The translations under genes were made by a program, and so were the position numbers. Of a stretch of DNA of 40,207 nt, positions 1,835-37,959 are shown piece by piece. The stretch is from Eubacteriales bacterium. GTDB taxonomy: Bacteria; Bacillota; Clostridia; Christensenellales; UMGS416. The stretch's first letter is position 1. Each line of letters begins with the position of its first letter. The notes beneath the pieces were generated by a model. That model searched no databases, was not told the origin of the DNA, and worked only from the letters and a program-made list of their open reading frames with translations. Where the stretch lies: positions 1 through 40,207 of the forward strand of contig JAQUVY010000010.1 of assembly GCA_028693155.1 (NCBI GenBank), given 5' to 3'.

Positions 1835-4800
1835 ATGCTCCGAGACGATCAGAACAATCCCATGGGAGGCTCCGACACCTCCAAAAAGAAACGCCCCGGC
1901 GAAGCATCCGGCGCGCCTCGCCGCCCATCTTCAAACACGCCGCCGCGCACGCGCAGGCGCGCGCCCGCTCCCCAAAGCGAAGAGGGCTTTTTGCCCCGCC
2001 GCCGCCCCGCTGCGCCCAGTGACCCCACGCCCGTTCGTCGGCGCGTGCAGCCCCCGATCCCCGAGCGGGAGGAGCCGCCTGCCCCGCCCGCCCAACCGGT
2101 GAGCGAAGAGGCTTGGGGGCAGGAACCGGCAGCCCCGGCCAACCGTCATGTCATCACGTTCGGCAAAAACGGCTCCATGGAGCCCACCGCCGAAGCGGAA
2201 CGCGACATGACCACCTCCGAGCTGCCCGATCTGCAGGCGCTGGCTTTGCCCGGCGAAGAAAAGCCGCCCGAAGCACCCCGCAGCCCCGCCCCGCGCAAAA
2301 AGGTTACGCTGGAGCCGCCCGCGCAAAGCGGCCCTCCTCCGCTGCCCAAAAACGCCCGGGCCAACCGCCCCTTTTGGGAGCACACGGCCGGCAAAAAGGA
2401 TTTCATGGGCTGGCTGAAATCCGGCAAATACGGTACCAAGCCCCCGCCCGACGACGGCGCTCCCTTTGCGCCCCGCAAGCGCGAGCGCAATGCCTTTGTG
2501 GGGTTGGGGCTGACCACGCTGCGTTTGCTGGTCGTGGCGCTGCTCATCGCGGGGATGACCGCCGCCGGCGTGGGCATCGGCATCGCCAAGGCTTATATGG
2601 ACACGACACCGGATCTGGATCTGGCACAGCTTTCGGAACAGGATCTGTCCAGCTTCGTTTATGACGGCAACGGCGATCTCATCACCACCATCGCCGGCAT
2701 GGAGAACCGCATCTACGCGCCCATCTCCGAGATCCCCGATTCGCTGCAGAAGGCCATCATCGCCATTGAGGACAACCGCTTTCTCAGCCACAAGGGCATC
2801 GACCTGAAGCGCATTGCCGGCGCGTTTTTCAACAACCTGCGCTCCTCCTCGGTGAGCGGCGGCAGCACGCTGACCCAGCAGCTCATCAAGCTCAAGGTGC
2901 TTTCCTCCGAGCGCACCTACAAGCGCAAAATTCAGGAAGCCTGGCTGGCCCTGCAGCTGGAGACCCAGTACAGCAAGGATCAGATTTTGGAGGCCTATCT
3001 TAACGCCATCCCGCTGGGGCAGTCCAACTATGGGGTGAAGGCGGCGGCAAAGGATTATTTCGGCAAGAAGCTCTCCGAGCTTTCCCTGCGCGAGTGCGCC
3101 ATGCTGGCCGGCCTGACCCAAAGCCCCAACACCTATGACCCCCGCGCCAACACCTACTCCCGCAACCGGATGGATCTGACCGACCGGCGCACCGACACGG
3201 TGCTGATGCGTATGTACGAATGCGGGTTTATCACCAAGGATGAATACCGCGCCGCGCTGGAAGCCGATGTGACCATCGTGGAGAAGAGCAACTATAAGGA
3301 CATGTACGACATGCCCTATTTCGTGGAATACGCCATTCAGGACGTGATCGACGGCTTTTTGAAGGCGCGCGGATTGCCGGATACCGCCGCCAACCGCCAG
3401 ACCATTCAAAACGAGCTGCGCACCGGCGGCTATCGGATCTATCTCACCGTGGATCGCACCGTTCAGCAGATCGTGGAGGACACGCTGTACAACTGGGACA
3501 AGTACCCCAGCATGCGTTATTCTCAGGATAAATACACCGTGGTGGGCACCTCGGACAGCAGCTTTACGCGCATTGAACAGCCTCAGGCTGCCGCCGTGGT
3601 GTACGACTACCACACCGGGCAGATCAAGGCCGTGGTGGGCGGGCGCTCTCAGCCCACCACCCGCATGACGCTGAACCGCGCCTATCAGTCCCACATGCCC
3701 GTAGGCTCCTCCATCAAGCCCTTGGCGGTTTACGGCCCGGCCATCGACCTGGGGCTGTCCCCCGCTTCGCCTTCGCTGAACGTGCCCCTGGCCATTGAGG
3801 GCTGGAACACCGAGCAGGGCTTCCCCAGCAACTACGGCGGCGGCGGCTTCACCGGCATCGTTTCCCTGCGCCAGGCCATGAAGAAATCACTCAACGTGGT
3901 GGCGGCGCGCGTGCTGATGGACAACGTCAGCGTGACCAGCTCGGTGGAATATCTGCGCAGCATGGGCATCACCAGCGCGCTCAACGAGGACGGCGCCGGT
4001 CTGGCGCTGGGCACCTCGGGCATTACCCCGGTGGAAATGGCGGTGGCCTACGGCGCCATTGCCAACGACGGAAAATATCAGGAAGCCTTCTCCTACACCA
4101 AGGTAACCGACAGCTACGGCGCCACCATACTGGATGCCGACTCCCTGCGCGAAACCAAACAGGTGCTCAAGGAATCCACGGCCTTCATTCTCACCGACAT
4201 GCTGGTGGACGCCGTTCAGGGCGGCACCGGCACCCGCGCGCAGATCAGCGGCATGACCGTGGGCGGAAAGACCGGCACTAACTCCGACAATGTGGGCGTC
4301 AGCTTTGCCGGCATCACGCCGTACTACTCCGCTTTCGTGTGGATCGGCCACGACAACTACAAGCCCCTGGCCAGCAACGCCACCGGCTCGACCGGCGCAG
4401 CGCCCCTGTGGCAGGCCTTTATGTCCAAGATCCACAGCACGCTCAACCTGCCCAACGACAGCATCCAACAGACCACCGCCGAAGGGCTGGGCATTACCAA
4501 GGTGGAGGTATGCGCGGTTTCGGGCAAGCTGGCCACCGACGCCTGCCGGCTGGACGCCAACGGCTATTTGCCCGTTACCGATTACTTTGCCGCGGGCACG
4601 GCACCTACCGATCCCTGCGATCAGCACCACGTTCTGAAGATCTGCAGCACTTCCGGGCTCATCGCCACGCCCTACTGCCCCGAAGCCGGGCTCACCGACA
4701 AGGCCATTTTGGCCATCCCCGGCGATTCCGTCATCCGCCAGCTGAGCGCGGCCGATCTGCAAGAGTATTTTGCCGGCGCTGTGTTTGATTATCCCACGGG

Positions 4801-5107
4801 GGACGCTTTGCAGGACTTCACCTACGACAACCCCGCTTACGCCTCCAGCTTCTGCAACGTGCACACCGCGGCGTGGGGCGCGGAGCAAAGTCAGCTCATC
4901 GCCGCGCGGGCGTCCGCGCAGACCCTGATCGACTCGCTGACCACCCGTCTGGAGCAGGCGACTGATTTGGACGCCTCGGTGGCCAGCGACCTGAAAGCCC
5001 GCATCAATGCCCTGAAAAAGCTGGCCAATGCGGCCGACACCACGGCCGATGCGCTGACCCAGGCCACCAACGCCCTGCGCACCCATGCCGCCAGCGTGCT
5101 GCCCTAA
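1835..5107 (+). CDS. Class A penicillin-binding protein (glycosyltransferase + transpeptidase, PBP1A family)
   Basis: 1090 aa; glycosyltransferase motifs (AIEDNRFLSHKGIDLKRIAGA, GGSTLTQQLIK), TM segment, transpeptidase motifs SSIK, SLN, KTGT; long Pro/Arg-rich N-terminal cytoplasmic extension. Confidence 0.95.
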   Translation: MLRDDQNNPMGGSDTSKKKRPGEASGAPRRPSSNTPPRTRRRAPAPQSEEGFLPRRRPAAPSDPTPVRRRVQPPIPEREEPPAPPAQPVSEEAWGQEPAAPANRHVITFGKNGSMEPTAEAERDMTTSELPDLQALALPGEEKPPEAPRSPAPRKKVTLEPPAQSGPPPLPKNARANRPFWEHTAGKKDFMGWLKSGKYGTKPPPDDGAPFAPRKRERNAFVGLGLTTLRLLVVALLIAGMTAAGVGIGIAKAYMDTTPDLDLAQLSEQDLSSFVYDGNGDLITTIAGMENRIYAPISEIPDSLQKAIIAIEDNRFLSHKGIDLKRIAGAFFNNLRSSSVSGGSTLTQQLIKLKVLSSERTYKRKIQEAWLALQLETQYSKDQILEAYLNAIPLGQSNYGVKAAAKDYFGKKLSELSLRECAMLAGLTQSPNTYDPRANTYSRNRMDLTDRRTDTVLMRMYECGFITKDEYRAALEADVTIVEKSNYKDMYDMPYFVEYAIQDVIDGFLKARGLPDTAANRQTIQNELRTGGYRIYLTVDRTVQQIVEDTLYNWDKYPSMRYSQDKYTVVGTSDSSFTRIEQPQAAAVVYDYHTGQIKAVVGGRSQPTTRMTLNRAYQSHMPVGSSIKPLAVYGPAIDLGLSPASPSLNVPLAIEGWNTEQGFPSNYGGGGFTGIVSLRQAMKKSLNVVAARVLMDNVSVTSSVEYLRSMGITSALNEDGAGLALGTSGITPVEMAVAYGAIANDGKYQEAFSYTKVTDSYGATILDADSLRETKQVLKESTAFILTDMLVDAVQGGTGTRAQISGMTVGGKTGTNSDNVGVSFAGITPYYSAFVWIGHDNYKPLASNATGSTGAAPLWQAFMSKIHSTLNLPNDSIQQTTAEGLGITKVEVCAVSGKLATDACRLDANGYLPVTDYFAAGTAPTDPCDQHHVLKICSTSGLIATPYCPEAGLTDKAILAIPGDSVIRQLSAADLQEYFAGAVFDYPTGDALQDFTYDNPAYASSFCNVHTAAWGAEQSQLIAARASAQTLIDSLTTRLEQATDLDASVASDLKARINALKKLANAADTTADALTQATNALRTHAASVLP

Positions 5108-5131
5108 GCAGCGCGCCCCACACCCAAAGAA

Positions 5132-5166
5132 AACGCCGGAAGAGCTGCTCTTCCGGCGTTTTTTTA
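5132..5166 (+). terminator. Rho-independent terminator downstream of the PBP gene
   Basis: AACGCCGGAAGAGCTGCTCTTCCGGCGTTTTTTT: perfect hairpin plus T-run. Confidence 0.9.
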
Positions 5167-5195
5167 CTTTGATTGGGTTTGCCCGCGGCAGGCGC

Positions 5196-6017
5196 TCAGT
5201 CCACGCCGATGCGGGTGCAGGGCGCCTCGTCGTTCAGCAGCTGGCTGAGGCGATAGCGCGCGTTGCCGATGATGACCTCCGTGCCGTTGCGCACGGCCTG
5301 CGCCGCAAACTCCAGCTTGGCCTTGGCACCGCCCGCCCACTTACGGCTGGCACCCTCGCAGTGCTGCTTGGCCAGCTCGATGTTGGCAAGCACCGCTTCC
5401 ATGTCCCGACCGCCGATGCGGCGGATGAGGGTGGCGGGATCGGCGGGGTCGGCATAAATGCCGTCCACCGACGTCATGATGAGCAGCCGCTTGGCCTGCA
5501 CGGTCTTGGCGATGACCGCGGCGGTCTCGTCGTTGTCCACACATTCCACAGCCTGGCCGTTGTGCCGGCGAAAAGCGGCCAGCTCCATCTTGCGGTTTTC
5601 CTCAAAGCTGACCGGGTCGTTGTAGTTTACGATGGGAATGGCGTTTTGCTGGGGGCAGCGCAGCAAAAAGCTGCGGATATACTCCCGCTTGGCTTCGTCG
5701 TTGAAGTGGGTATGCTCCACCAGCAGCTGCCGCACCGAATATTTTGGGTCGATATATCTGCGATAGTTTTCCATGAGGATGGACTGCCCCTGGGCGGCGT
5801 AGTCGGTCTTGACCTCCTCGTCCGCGCCGGTCAGCTCCTGCCCGTGGCGCTTCACATAATCCACACGGCCGATCTCGGTGGCGCCGGAGGAGACCCAAAT
5901 CATCCCAGGGCGCAGCTCCGCGCCCAACCGGCTGAAAATGTTATAGTCGATGTCATGATCCTCCCGACGGATGAGGGCCATGGATCCGATCTTTCCGACC
6001 AGCTCAATCTGCCCCAT
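5196..6017 (-). CDS. Amino-acid kinase family protein (glutamate 5-kinase / uridylate kinase-like, PF00696-type)
   Basis: MGQIELVGKIGSMALIRREDHDIDYNIFSRLGAELRPGMIWVSSGATEIGR...IPIVNYNDPVS...VDNDETAAVIAKTVQAKRLLIMTSVDGIYADPADP...GGAKAKLEFAAQAVRNGTEVIIGN. Confidence 0.8.
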   Translation of the reverse strand: MGQIELVGKIGSMALIRREDHDIDYNIFSRLGAELRPGMIWVSSGATEIGRVDYVKRHGQELTGADEEVKTDYAAQGQSILMENYRRYIDPKYSVRQLLVEHTHFNDEAKREYIRSFLLRCPQQNAIPIVNYNDPVSFEENRKMELAAFRRHNGQAVECVDNDETAAVIAKTVQAKRLLIMTSVDGIYADPADPATLIRRIGGRDMEAVLANIELAKQHCEGASRKWAGGAKAKLEFAAQAVRNGTEVIIGNARYRLSQLLNDEAPCTRIGVD

Positions 6018-7389
6018 TGAGAACCTCCCCCGCGGGCTGCGCATCCTCGGTCAGGCGGCGCATCCAGCCTTTTTTCATAAACACGATCAGCCCGATGATG
6101 ACCTTGCTGGCCTCCTCCACATACACGCAGGAAAACACCAGCTCAAACGGCAGCTTCCACACAAAGCCCGCCAAAAAAGTAAGCGGCAGACCGATGAGGT
6201 ACATGGGCAGCAGGTCGATGAAGGCACTGATCTTGGGCGATCCGCCCGAGCGGAAGATGCCCACGATGAACGTATAGGGCAGCAGGCGGCATATGGTCAT
6301 AAAGCTGCCGATGAGCAGCAGGCGCTTGGCCATCTCCGCCGTCTCGGGGTTGGTGGGGTTCATCAGCTCCACCAGCGGCCCGCGCATCACGGCCAGGAAG
6401 ATGCCCATCAGCGCGGCAATGACCACCGTCGTCCAGCAGAAGCGCTTGGCGTCGCCCCAGGCGCGCTCGTTGTCCCCCGCGCCTACGGACTTGCCCACCA
6501 TCACCACGCAGGCGTTGCCAAAGCCGATGAAGAAGGAGAACGCCAGGTTATCGATGGAAGCAAAGAGCGTGTAGGCCGCGTAGTTGGACGCACCCTGACG
6601 ACCCAGCACCACGCTGTACAGATTGCTGCCCACCGCCCAAACGATCTCGTTGATGAGCACCCAAACGGCGATCTTATAAAACTTGGCCACAAACGCCCGG
6701 CTCATGGAAAACATTTCCGAGAACTTCGCGGCAGCCACATTTTTTTCCTTATAACACACGATCAGCAGCAGCACCACCTGCAGCCACTGGGAGATCACCG
6801 TGGCATACGCCGCGCCGGCCACGCCCAGAGCGGGGAAGCCCAGCTTGCCGTAGATCAAAGCATAGTTGAGCACCGTGTTGGAAACCACGCTGAACAGCGA
6901 CGCAAACAGCGGCAGCTTGACCTGCTCGGTGTTGCGCAGCACGCTGGTGAGCATGGTGCTCACCGCCATGGCGATGGAACCGAAGCAGGCGATGCGCATA
7001 TACTCCGCCCCCAGCGTGATCAGCTCTGTTTGATTCCCGGCAAACACCTTCATCATTACACCCGGCGCAACCAACATGAAGACCATGGAAACCAGCACCA
7101 CACCCAGGGAGTTGATCATGCCCAGGCCGTACGCGCGCTTGATGTTCTTTTCGTCCTTCATGCCCCAGTACTGGGCCATCAGCACCGACGCGCCCGAGGC
7201 CACGCCGAACAAAATAATGTTAAACATAAAGAACCAGCGCCCCGCCATGCCCACGGCGGCGGTCGCTTCATCGCCCAGGCGGACGATCATCGCCGAATCC
7301 ACCAGGTGCATGGAAGCCGCCAGCAAATTTTGCAGAGAGATGGGAATGGCCAGGCGGAGCATATCCCGAAAAAATTCTTTATTCTTCAT
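6004..7389 (-). CDS. MATE family efflux transporter
   Basis: 461 aa, about 12 hydrophobic segments; N-terminal LRLAIPISLQNLLAASMHLVDSAMIVRLGDEATAAVGMAGRWFFMFNIILFGVASGASVLMAQYWG typical of MATE/NorM. Confidence 0.92.
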   Translation of the reverse strand: MKNKEFFRDMLRLAIPISLQNLLAASMHLVDSAMIVRLGDEATAAVGMAGRWFFMFNIILFGVASGASVLMAQYWGMKDEKNIKRAYGLGMINSLGVVLVSMVFMLVAPGVMMKVFAGNQTELITLGAEYMRIACFGSIAMAVSTMLTSVLRNTEQVKLPLFASLFSVVSNTVLNYALIYGKLGFPALGVAGAAYATVISQWLQVVLLLIVCYKEKNVAAAKFSEMFSMSRAFVAKFYKIAVWVLINEIVWAVGSNLYSVVLGRQGASNYAAYTLFASIDNLAFSFFIGFGNACVVMVGKSVGAGDNERAWGDAKRFCWTTVVIAALMGIFLAVMRGPLVELMNPTNPETAEMAKRLLLIGSFMTICRLLPYTFIVGIFRSGGSPKISAFIDLLPMYLIGLPLTFLAGFVWKLPFELVFSCVYVEEASKVIIGLIVFMKKGWMRRLTEDAQPAGEVLNGAD

Positions 7390-30675: not shown

Positions 30676-30922
30676 TAATATAAACCAATGATGCGGAAGA
30701 GGTCGGCGGCAGGCACCAACAGCGAGCGGGCGGCAGTGAAAGCCCCGCGGAATGCGCCCCGGTCGTTTGGGCCGCAGAGGGTATCGGGGAACGCGGAGCT
30801 TTTCCGTCTGTATCCGAACCGGGTCGCCCCCGTTAACGGGCGCTGAGAGGGTCGGGCTTTCCGGCCAACAAAGGTGGTACCGCAGATGTCCGTCTGTCCT
30901 TTTCGGGGCAGGCGGTTTTTTT
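30676..30922 (+). promoter_or_regulatory. T-box riboswitch (tRNA-sensing leader) upstream of iorA
   Basis: AGCGAGC...CAGTGAAAGCCC stem-I apical features; T-box AACAAAGGTGGTACCGCAG (about 30867-30885); terminator CCGTCTGTCCTTTTCGGGGCAGGCGGTTTTTTT. Confidence 0.9.
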
Positions 30923-35095: not shown

Positions 35096-35380
35096 TAATT
35101 TCAAACGCGATGACGGGAAGAAACGCGGAGCGCATCCAGTCAAGAGAGCCGCCGGTTGGTGCAAGGCGGTACGGATTCCCTGCGAATTACTGGTCCCACG
35201 AGCGGCCAAACCCAACGCCGGCTTCGGCAAGTAGGTGCGGACGGGATTGCCTCCGTTATGAATCGGCAGGGCATTTATAGATGCCCCAAAGTGGGTATGA
35301 TTTTCATACCAAAAAGAGTGGTACCGCGGAAGTATATCGCTTTCGTCTCTTGCAAAGGCCGGAGACGAAAGCTTTTTTTC
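35096..35380 (+). promoter_or_regulatory. T-box riboswitch upstream of the TIM-barrel/acyl-CoA synthetase fusion gene
   Basis: AGAGAGCCGCCGGTTGGTGCAAGGCGG apical stem-I motif; T-box AAAAAGAGTGGTACCGCGGAAG (35311-35332); terminator GCTTTCGTCTCTTGCAAAGGCCGGAGACGAAAGCTTTTTTT. Confidence 0.95.
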
Positions 35381-35427
35381 GTTCTCCCAACAAAACGAAA
35401 ATTTGTCAAGGAGGAACGACACAACAC

Positions 35428-37959
35428 ATGAAACTCGCATTTTCCACCCTGGGCTGCCCGGATTTTGACTGGTCTGACATTTATTCCATGGCTAAGGACA
35501 TGGGCTTTGACGGCATTGAGATGCGCGGTCTGGGCGATGCTATTTTTTCGGTGCATGCCAAGCCCTTCCGCGCCGATCAGCTGCCCAAGACCCGGGAGAA
35601 GCTCGCCCGGATGCATTTGGAGCTTCCCTGCCTGTCCACCCACTGCGCCTTAAAATATAAAGAGGAGTCGGAAAAGACCCACGCCGAGATCCGTGAATAT
35701 ATCGACCTGGCACAGCGCCTGGGCACGCCTTATATCCGCATCCTGGCTGACCGCTACCCCGCCCCCGACGGCGAGGTGGACGATGCGTGGATCCGCAAGG
35801 CGCTGACCCGCCTCATCCCCTATGCCGAGGCAGCGGGCGTCACGCTGCTGGTGGAGACCAACGGCGTTTACGCCGACACCGCCCGCCTGCGCGATCTGCT
35901 CAACGACATCCCCAGCGATGCCATCGGCGCGCTGTGGGACATTCACCACCCCTACCGCTACGCCCACGAAACGCCCGCGCAAACGGTGGAAAACTTGGGT
36001 GCCTACATCAAATATGTTCACGCCAAGGACTCGGTGATGGAAAACGGCCGGGCGGTCTACCGCATGATGGGAGAAGGCGATCTGCCCATCCCCGACATCA
36101 TGCGCGCCCTGCGCTCCATCAATTACGAGGGATACGTCTCGCTGGAATGGGTGAAAAGCTACACGCCCGACCTGCAGGAGGCCGGCGTAGTGTTCCCTCA
36201 CTTCGCCCATTATATGAGCCAGTTCATGGACAAGCCCGTCGAGTCGCACCGGCTGTATGACAACGCCCGCAGCACGGGAAAATTTGTCTGGCCCAAGGAG
36301 CACCTCATCGACCTGACCTTCCCGCAGGTGCTGGACCGCATGGTGGATGAATTTCCCGAGCAATACGCCTTCCGCTACACCACGCTGGATTACACCCGCA
36401 CCTACGCCGAATTCCGCGACGACGTGGACACCTTTGCCCGCTCTTTGCTGGCCATGGGGGTAAAATCCGGCGATCACGTGGCCATCTGGGCCACCAATGT
36501 GCCCGCCTGGTACATCACCTTTTGGGCGACCACCAAGATCGGCGCGGTGCTGGTGACGGTAAACACGGCCTATAAAATTCACGAGGCTGAATATTTGCTG
36601 CGCCAGAGCGACACCCATACGCTGGTCATGGTGGACGGCTACAAGGATTCGGATTATGTATCCATCATCAACGAACTGTGCCCCGAGCTGGCGCAAACAC
36701 CGGCCGGCAAGCCCCTGCACAGCAAGCGTCTGCCCTTCCTGCGCAACGTCATCACCGTGGACTCCCGGCAGCCCGGCTGCATGACCTGGGACGACGCCAT
36801 CGCCTTGGCGCCCAGCGTGCCCGCCGAAGAGGTCTACCGCCGCGCCGCTGCCATCGACAAGCACGACGTATGCAACATGCAGTACACCTCGGGCACCACC
36901 GGCTTCCCCAAGGGCGTCATGCTCACCCACTATAACGTGGTGAACAACGGCAAGGCCATCGGTGACTGCATGGACTTATCCACCGCCGACCGCATGATGA
37001 TCCAGGTGCCCATGTTCCACTGCTTCGGCATGGTGCTGGCCATGACGGCCTCCATGACCCACGGCGTGACCATGAGCCCCATCCCGGCCTTCTCCCCCAA
37101 GAAAGGGTTGGACTGCATCAACCGCGAGAAGATCACCTGCTTCCACGGCGTCCCCACCATGTTTATCGCCATGCTGGGGCATGACGACTTTGCCAAAACC
37201 GATTTCAGCCAAATGCGCACCGGCATCATGGCCGGCAGCCCCTGCCCCATCAAGGTAATGCAGGATGTGGTGGAAAAGATGCACATGAGCGAGATCTGCA
37301 TCACCTACGGGCAAACCGAGGCCAGCCCCGCCACCACCATGAGCAAGACTACTGATTCCCTGGATGCCCGCATCAATACCGTGGGCGCCTCCATGTTCGC
37401 GGTGGAATGCAAGATCGTCGATCCGGAGACCGGGGAAGATCTGCCCGACAATATGGACGGCGAATTCTGCGCCCGGGGCTATAACGTGATGAAGGGCTAC
37501 TATAAAATGCCCGAGGCCACCGCCGCCGTCATCGACGCCGAGGGTTGGCTGCACAGCGGCGACTTGGCTCGCCGCCTGCCCGACGGGTATTTTAAGATCA
37601 CCGGGCGCATCAAGGACATGATCATCCGCGGTGGGGAAAACATCTACCCCAAGGAAATCGAGGACTTTATTTACACCCATCCCAAGGTTTCCGATGTGCA
37701 GGTCATCGGCGTGCCCGACAAGGCCTACGGCGAGGAGATCATGGCGTGCGTGGTGCTCAAGCCCGGCGAAACCTCCACCGCCGAGGAGATCAAGGAATAT
37801 GTGGCTTCCCACATGGCCAAGCACAAAACGCCCCGGTATGTGGCCTTTGTGGAGGGCTTCCCCATGAACGCCGCCGGCAAGATCCTCAAGTATAAAATGC
37901 GGGAGCAGGCCGTGCAGCTGCTCAACCTGCAAGGCGCCAATTCCATCGAAACCGCCTGA
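35428..37959 (+). CDS. Fusion protein: N-terminal sugar-phosphate isomerase/epimerase-like TIM barrel plus C-terminal AMP-binding acyl-CoA synthetase
   Basis: N-terminus MKLAFSTLGCPDFDWSDIYSMAKDMGFDGIEMRGLGD...LLVETNGVYAD...GALWDIHHPYRYAHETPAQTVENLGAYIKYVHAKDS...GYVSLEWVKSY; C-terminus MQYTSGTTGFPKGVMLTH, YGQTEASP, GWLHSGDLARRLPDGYFKITGRIKDMIIRGGENIYPKEIE, NAAGKILKYKMRE. One uninterrupted 844-aa frame. Confidence 0.93.
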   Translation: MKLAFSTLGCPDFDWSDIYSMAKDMGFDGIEMRGLGDAIFSVHAKPFRADQLPKTREKLARMHLELPCLSTHCALKYKEESEKTHAEIREYIDLAQRLGTPYIRILADRYPAPDGEVDDAWIRKALTRLIPYAEAAGVTLLVETNGVYADTARLRDLLNDIPSDAIGALWDIHHPYRYAHETPAQTVENLGAYIKYVHAKDSVMENGRAVYRMMGEGDLPIPDIMRALRSINYEGYVSLEWVKSYTPDLQEAGVVFPHFAHYMSQFMDKPVESHRLYDNARSTGKFVWPKEHLIDLTFPQVLDRMVDEFPEQYAFRYTTLDYTRTYAEFRDDVDTFARSLLAMGVKSGDHVAIWATNVPAWYITFWATTKIGAVLVTVNTAYKIHEAEYLLRQSDTHTLVMVDGYKDSDYVSIINELCPELAQTPAGKPLHSKRLPFLRNVITVDSRQPGCMTWDDAIALAPSVPAEEVYRRAAAIDKHDVCNMQYTSGTTGFPKGVMLTHYNVVNNGKAIGDCMDLSTADRMMIQVPMFHCFGMVLAMTASMTHGVTMSPIPAFSPKKGLDCINREKITCFHGVPTMFIAMLGHDDFAKTDFSQMRTGIMAGSPCPIKVMQDVVEKMHMSEICITYGQTEASPATTMSKTTDSLDARINTVGASMFAVECKIVDPETGEDLPDNMDGEFCARGYNVMKGYYKMPEATAAVIDAEGWLHSGDLARRLPDGYFKITGRIKDMIIRGGENIYPKEIEDFIYTHPKVSDVQVIGVPDKAYGEEIMACVVLKPGETSTAEEIKEYVASHMAKHKTPRYVAFVEGFPMNAAGKILKYKMREQAVQLLNLQGANSIETA

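Follow-up and report, generated by a model that had tools for sequence, protein, structure and literature searches.

The window analyzed here, a stretch of 40,207 nucleotides from contig JAQUVY010000010.1 of an Eubacteriales bacterium, includes a gene whose product joins, in a single chain, an isomerase-like TIM barrel to an acyl-CoA ligase under the control of a leucine T-box. We propose, with a probability of roughly 0.58, that leucine starvation induces this fusion and that it acts as an ATP-dependent CoA ligase on a branched C5 acid, isovalerate being the most likely one, and so feeds leucine synthesis.

Features of the fusion locus and of the nearby ior-paaK leader in the window.
Feature	Position	Strand	Basis
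T-box upstream of iorA-iorB-paaK, separate from that of the fusion	30679..30904	+	RF00230, 70 bits, below gathering score
Specifier TGG (Trp) of the ior T-box	30768..30770	+	Same position rule as for the fusion T-box
T-box leader of the fusion	35101..35353	+	RF00230, cmscan 95.2 bits, gathering score 93; stem-I model R1, 75.2 bits
Specifier codon CTG (Leu)	35190..35192	+	Position rule from same-genome T-boxes; model alignment column
Intrinsic terminator, 11-bp perfect stem GCTTTCGTCTC/GAGACGAAAGC then T7	35339..35379	+	Sequence; RNA fold
Ribosome-binding site AAGGAGG	35408..35414	+	Read from sequence; just 5' of the fusion ATG
Fusion gene	35428..37959	+	Uninterrupted open frame, 843 aa, ATG at 35428, stop codon at 37959; 80 full-length relatives
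Xylose-isomerase-like TIM barrel, N-terminal, residues 1-265	35428..36222	+	PF01261; AlphaFold2; Foldseek
Putative metal-site residues E143, D171, H174, H198, E240	35854..36147	+	Invariance; alignment with AsbF
Variable linker, residues 266-290	36223..36297	+	Identity to relatives; low pLDDT
AMP-forming acyl-CoA ligase, residues 291-843	36298..37956	+	PF00501, PF13193, PRK12583 match, invariant motifs

The initial annotation described one uninterrupted frame running from a barrel into a complete AMP-forming acyl-CoA synthetase, and this is borne out, with a chain one residue shorter than the 844 it had given. Pfam recovers the barrel (AP_endonuc_2, PF01261, 123.6 bits) and both ligase domains (AMP-binding, PF00501, 303.3 bits; AMP-binding_C, PF13193, 73.6 bits), and every motif that had been quoted is present in the translated frame: VETNG at residue 142, LWDIHH at 169, LEWV at 239, SGTTGFPKG at 488, GWLHSGDLARR at 706, and AAGKILK at 815. 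The structure prediction that had been suggested agrees with this division, with an AlphaFold2 pLDDT of 92.7 for the barrel alone and 82.7 for the whole chain, falling below 50 at residues 269 to 274 of the linker. The linker is also the least conserved segment in the family alignment, at 44% identity versus 63 to 84% in the rest of the fusion. A full-chain Foldseek search listed 50 matches, all of them ligases, and none was a solved structure with the barrel-ligase architecture.

A survey of genomes, also suggested at the outset, showed that this architecture is widespread. In the genome collection, each of the 80 best matches is a full-length fusion, with 70 to 81% identity; this set is limited to the closest relatives and drawn mostly from metagenome-assembled genomes (MAGs). 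Carriers span several families of Clostridia as well as the Negativicutes, including records from the Peptococcaceae, Oscillospiraceae, Lachnospiraceae, and Sporomusaceae among others, and many are gut or rumen MAGs; the cultured species Sporomusa acidovorans (L039) and Anaerobacterium chartisolvens (L027) are also carriers. When 300 genomes were sampled evenly across the phylum, a near-full-length match turned up in about 15 (counting that of the window), and one more contained a match in frame-broken pieces. These relatives and the phylum sample exclude an assembly artifact as the source of the fusion, and the concern that homologues might always occur as two separate genes does not hold in general. 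Fused sequences formed one group in each of the trees of the two halves (support 95/100 and 99/99), which fits a single fusion event. Among gut and anaerobic Clostridia, the fusion is both old and common.

The T-box leader that had been noted upstream of the fusion is real, scoring above the Rfam gathering score and combining a readable specifier with a clean terminator. As a control on the specifier position we used 12 further T-boxes of the same genome, whose genes were named by eye from N-terminal sequences; the synthetase genes read TTC (pheS), TAC (tyrS), TGG (trpS), ATC (ileS), ATG (metG), TCC (serS), GTC (valS), TGC (cysS), and ACC (thrS), and the others TGG (trpB), ATG (metN), and AAC (asparagine synthetase). 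We then derived a stem-I covariance model from 32 family leaders and ran it over 94 loci, where it placed a T-box directly upstream of 48 of the 80 fused relatives, the window gene, and 7 ligase-only genes (48 CTC and 8 CTG specifiers). A second run added 7 more ligase-only genes and the operon of a divergent fusion (L127, discussed below), all with leucine specifiers. In total, every one of the 64 T-boxes found upstream of the fusion, its ligase-only homologues, or the L127 operon has a leucine codon (CTC or CTG). Since the model was trained on family leaders, the number of T-boxes is not a blind count and the codon tally is its informative part; T-boxes of other genes within the first 94 loci carried AAC, ATC, AAC, TAC, and TTC, indicating that leucine is not imposed by the model. 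At 32 of the 80 fused relatives the stem-I model found no T-box, and partial leaders are visible by eye in some of these (e.g., L030 and L021).

Three fusions (L064, L072, and L074) have a stem I with a leucine specifier upstream, but a pattern search did not find the usual TGGNACCGCG antiterminator there; these may be variant or decayed T-boxes. Upstream of one ligase-only gene (L098), a tRNA-Ala gene (anticodon GGC, positions 4740-4814) lies within the leucine T-box (4572-4860), between stem I and the antiterminator. The window's genome also has a T-box with an apparent isoleucine specifier, ATC, heading an HTH/cupin-like gene on a contig that ends soon after (L109, G000:C105, 556-803).

The initial annotation had looked to the neighboring ior and paaK genes for the substrate of the fusion. 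That connection fails: those genes have their own T-box with a tryptophan specifier, and iorA, iorB, or paaK was found directly beside the fusion in none of the relatives' 80 loci, and a functional tie was rejected. More distant matches were limited to a paaK-like gene 3 to 8 kb away in 2 of the 80 loci (39 to 43% identity) and an iorA-like match (27%) about 9 kb away in 1, and no neighbor of any kind was conserved around the fusion across these loci, with neighbor clusters spanning at most 5 of them. By their leaders, ior-paaK and the fusion are two separately controlled units, one with a tryptophan and the other with a leucine specifier, and they look like parallel acid-salvage units. The tryptophan T-box on iorA-iorB-paaK suggests arylacetate salvage for tryptophan, with Ior run in reverse. 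With the ior/paaK link gone, an aryl substrate for the fusion is unlikely, and the leucine specifier points instead to an aliphatic branched acid.

The ligase half has the hallmarks of the ANL superfamily of AMP-forming ligases: AMP-binding and C-terminal domains, a P-loop (YTSGTTGFPKG, residues 486-496), and a catalytic lysine (K818), the latter two invariant in the relatives. Its best match is PRK12583 (NF009233), with scores for the window protein (705 bits) and L127 (698 bits) below the 832-bit cut-off, which a ligase-only relative (L107) exceeds at 854 bits. The domain is 50 to 63% identical to ligase-only relatives in Clostridia, and these homologues are informative about its substrate. 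Among the 31 ligase-only loci opened, 14 have a leucine T-box directly upstream. Another eight, with no overlap with the former, lie among genes for acyl-CoA dehydrogenase, biotin carboxylase, HMG-CoA lyase, or acetoacetyl-CoA synthetase; neighbors in L106-L108, L134, L135, L140, L144, and L145 were named partly by tblastn with NCBIfam-named L107 proteins and partly from N-terminal sequences. This gene set belongs to leucine degradation via isovaleryl-CoA, and we take clusters of this kind with PRK12583 ligases to be of the liu/Bacillus yng type. A single acid, isovalerate, fits both the synthesis and the degradation contexts. Ligases without an adjacent barrel share the leucine control, which argues that the barrel is dispensable for the basic ligase step.

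Six genomes (L089-L094) encode ligase and barrel as adjacent separate genes, in the order opposite to that of the fusion, with 58 to 62% (ligase) and 39 to 45% (barrel) identity. Directly after the barrel gene, three of these (L090, L092, and L094) carry genes encoding 2-oxoacid:ferredoxin oxidoreductase subunits, and the ligase-barrel pair of L093 is followed by a match to the alpha subunit; ilvN and ilvD lie directly upstream of the pair in L094. Of the remaining two, the L089 pair is close to a contig end and the L091 pair has other genes in the place of the oxidoreductase. The stem-I model found no T-box upstream of the split operons. The two parts thus occur as a single gene in one lineage and as neighboring genes in another, which is good evidence that barrel and ligase work together.

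The barrel belongs to the AP_endonuc_2 family, its PF01261 score far above the cut-off of 31.1 bits and its fold and ligands in agreement. Foldseek likeness is about equal to sugar epimerases, AsbF, and IolI, with UlaE also matched, and by profile the closest solved relative is AsbF (7.8e-16). The putative metal-site residues sit at the barrel strand ends, in part within the VETNG, LWDIHH, and LEWV motifs first pointed to, and all five, H198 included, are the same throughout 81 fused and 9 separate barrels. The possibility that homologues lack these ligands therefore fails across 90 of 91 proteins and applies to one, the divergent fusion L127, in which comparison by eye against the family alignment gives D171Q, H174A, K200M, and E240V beside a ligase that is 70% identical. 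The L127 operon (G053:C2:58000-68000, positions 3039-7238, minus strand) consists of a leucine T-box, a leuA-like gene, and the barrel-ligase fusion. Its leuA-like protein seems to be without the usual LRDGEQ and HxHND metal motifs, the C-terminal part being kept, and the operon may possibly combine two pseudo-enzymes (the leuA-like protein and the barrel) with one intact ligase. Because the L127 barrel lost its metal ligands while the ligase stayed intact, the ligase is the constant part of the protein, with barrel chemistry presumably retained in most lineages and lost in at least one. A stand-alone barrel paralogue with 36% identity and an intact metal site, without a ligase beside it, is present in the window's genome (L082, G000:C55, 1501-2304).

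Known activities do not transfer readily to this barrel. The metal positions align with those of AsbF, a 3-dehydroshikimate dehydratase, but the AsbF histidine two residues after the metal glutamate (ETH), which we take to be catalytic, is asparagine here (ETN), and we rejected that assignment. Identity as IolE, IolI, or hydroxypyruvate isomerase found no support among the matches listed: the general PF01261 was the only barrel family matched in Pfam and the best 25 of 115 NCBIfam matches were ligase models.

From the fusion, its active sites, the leucine specifier, and the split operons, all read from the sequence, we infer a substrate, a direction of flux, and a role for the barrel. Uncharged tRNA-Leu would bind the T-box, termination would be avoided, and the fusion would be made; its ligase domain would convert isovalerate to isovaleryl-CoA, a 2-oxoacid:ferredoxin oxidoreductase working in the carboxylating direction would yield 2-ketoisocaproate, and a branched-chain aminotransferase would convert this to leucine. 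For the barrel, the likeliest role is that of a metal-dependent enzyme acting in this pathway; it would be held to the ligase by the short linker and be dispensable. The choice of isovalerate follows from the leucine T-boxes, the split operons with an oxidoreductase (once beside ilv genes), and the contexts of the ligase-only genes. The window's genome contains an ilvE and VorB-like fragments, although VorB-like sequences occur in 45 of 46 genomes and are uninformative as a presence test.

Several observations weigh against this proposal. The barrel is conserved although nothing of the isomerase type is required in the pathway; the link between ligase and oxidoreductase genes is seen in 4 split operons and is absent beside the fused genes; and ligases of the PRK12583 type carry a fatty-acid ligase annotation. 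Both leuA and leuB are present in most carriers, which rules out replacement of leuABCD as a rule and implies that the isovalerate route would be a salvage route rather than the only source of leucine. In the window's own genome (assembly 94% complete), leuA has another leuA-family gene of lower score (C134) as its neighbor, no leuB match was found, and the only aconitase-family protein is a 756-aa open frame.

As one half of a leucine-switched bifunctional enzyme, the metal barrel might catalyze a reaction not yet on record, its substrate being a branched oxo- or hydroxy-acid or the CoA or AMP ester of such an acid, which it would pass to the fused ligase or receive from it; we regard this as somewhat unlikely, and if true it would mean that leucine synthesis in anaerobes has a branch that has not been described. 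The idea of the initial annotation, that the barrel generates or isomerizes the carboxylate that the ligase then activates, with channeling between the domains, has a parallel in petrobactin synthesis, in which AsbF supplies an acid to a separate ligase, and would be consistent with the profile match to AsbF, the metal site shared by 90 barrels, and the pairing of the parts as fused or adjacent genes. This appears unlikely, as the same leucine T-box occurs on ligases with no adjacent barrel, L127 keeps an intact ligase despite a dead metal site, and the AsbF histidine is replaced. L127 would be accounted for if the barrel were mainly structural or regulatory, a former enzyme serving as a scaffold or ligase sensor, as would the faster divergence of the barrel (63% identity to the window protein among relatives versus 78 to 84% for the ligase), but the metal site is complete in every one of the 80 closer fusions and of the 9 separate barrels, which makes such a role quite improbable.

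A different fate for the product is also conceivable. Leucine is the normal source of the isovaleryl-CoA that serves as iso-branched primer, and the leucine T-box would also fit a ligase that salvages isovalerate for membrane fatty acids when leucine is short. The ligase falls in a fatty-acid ligase subfamily, and MbcS of Staphylococcus aureus offers a precedent with 2-methylbutyrate and isobutyrate (PMC10026030). Against this, the split operons carry the oxidoreductase and once ilvD-ilvN, one fusion lies behind a leuA-like gene in an operon headed by a leucine T-box, and no fatty-acid synthesis genes were among the neighbors read, so that we consider a priming function quite unlikely. Leucine synthesis from isovalerate remains our preferred reading. 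Of the earlier interpretation, the two-domain protein with intact active sites, the T-box control, and a tie to a branched-chain amino acid and to a reaction of the 2-oxoacid oxidoreductase type stand; the ior/paaK route does not, and an aryl substrate is unlikely.

What is new is that the T-box is leucine-specific, that the fusion is broadly distributed, that its two parts also form split operons, and that ior-paaK is a separate unit. A literature search that lacked two key T-box surveys returned no paper on a barrel-ligase fusion or a leucine T-box ligase, and an earlier mention of the latter could exist, for example in such surveys. PRK12583 acyl-CoA ligases correspond to the ligase domain over its whole length; the fusion differs in its N-terminal barrel, its leucine T-box control, and its subthreshold score. 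The barrel shares its fold and four-ligand metal site with AP_endonuc_2 enzymes such as AsbF, IolI, UlaE, and the D-tagatose/D-allulose 3-epimerases, but it is fused to a ligase, is no more than about 20% identical to the solved structures, and forms its own subfamily with invariant R33, R104, H174, and K200. The barrel poses the puzzle of a conserved putative metal enzyme attached to a pathway with no evident need for its step. MbcS resembles the proposed function in salvaging external branched short-chain acids with an AMP-forming ligase; it has no barrel, it prefers 2-methylbutyrate and isobutyrate with isovalerate a poor substrate (PMC10026030), and its model, NF047394, was not among the best 25 of 115 NCBIfam matches of the window protein.

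A further parallel is the rumen, where leucine synthesis by isovalerate carboxylation is established physiology, described by Allison and co-workers in 1962-1966 (as cited in PMC7356843 and PMC10701908), and the pathway proposed here matches that system, as does the type of habitat. That route is known as physiology, and in the literature searched, which did not include Allison 1966, we found no paper naming a gene for the activation step. Branched-acid cross-feeding shapes the growth of gut and rumen Clostridia, and the widespread leucine T-box ligases and oxidoreductase operons make the activation step of the 1960s route testable in these organisms, with the fusion a good candidate for the isovalerate-activating enzyme in the synthesis of leucine from a waste acid.
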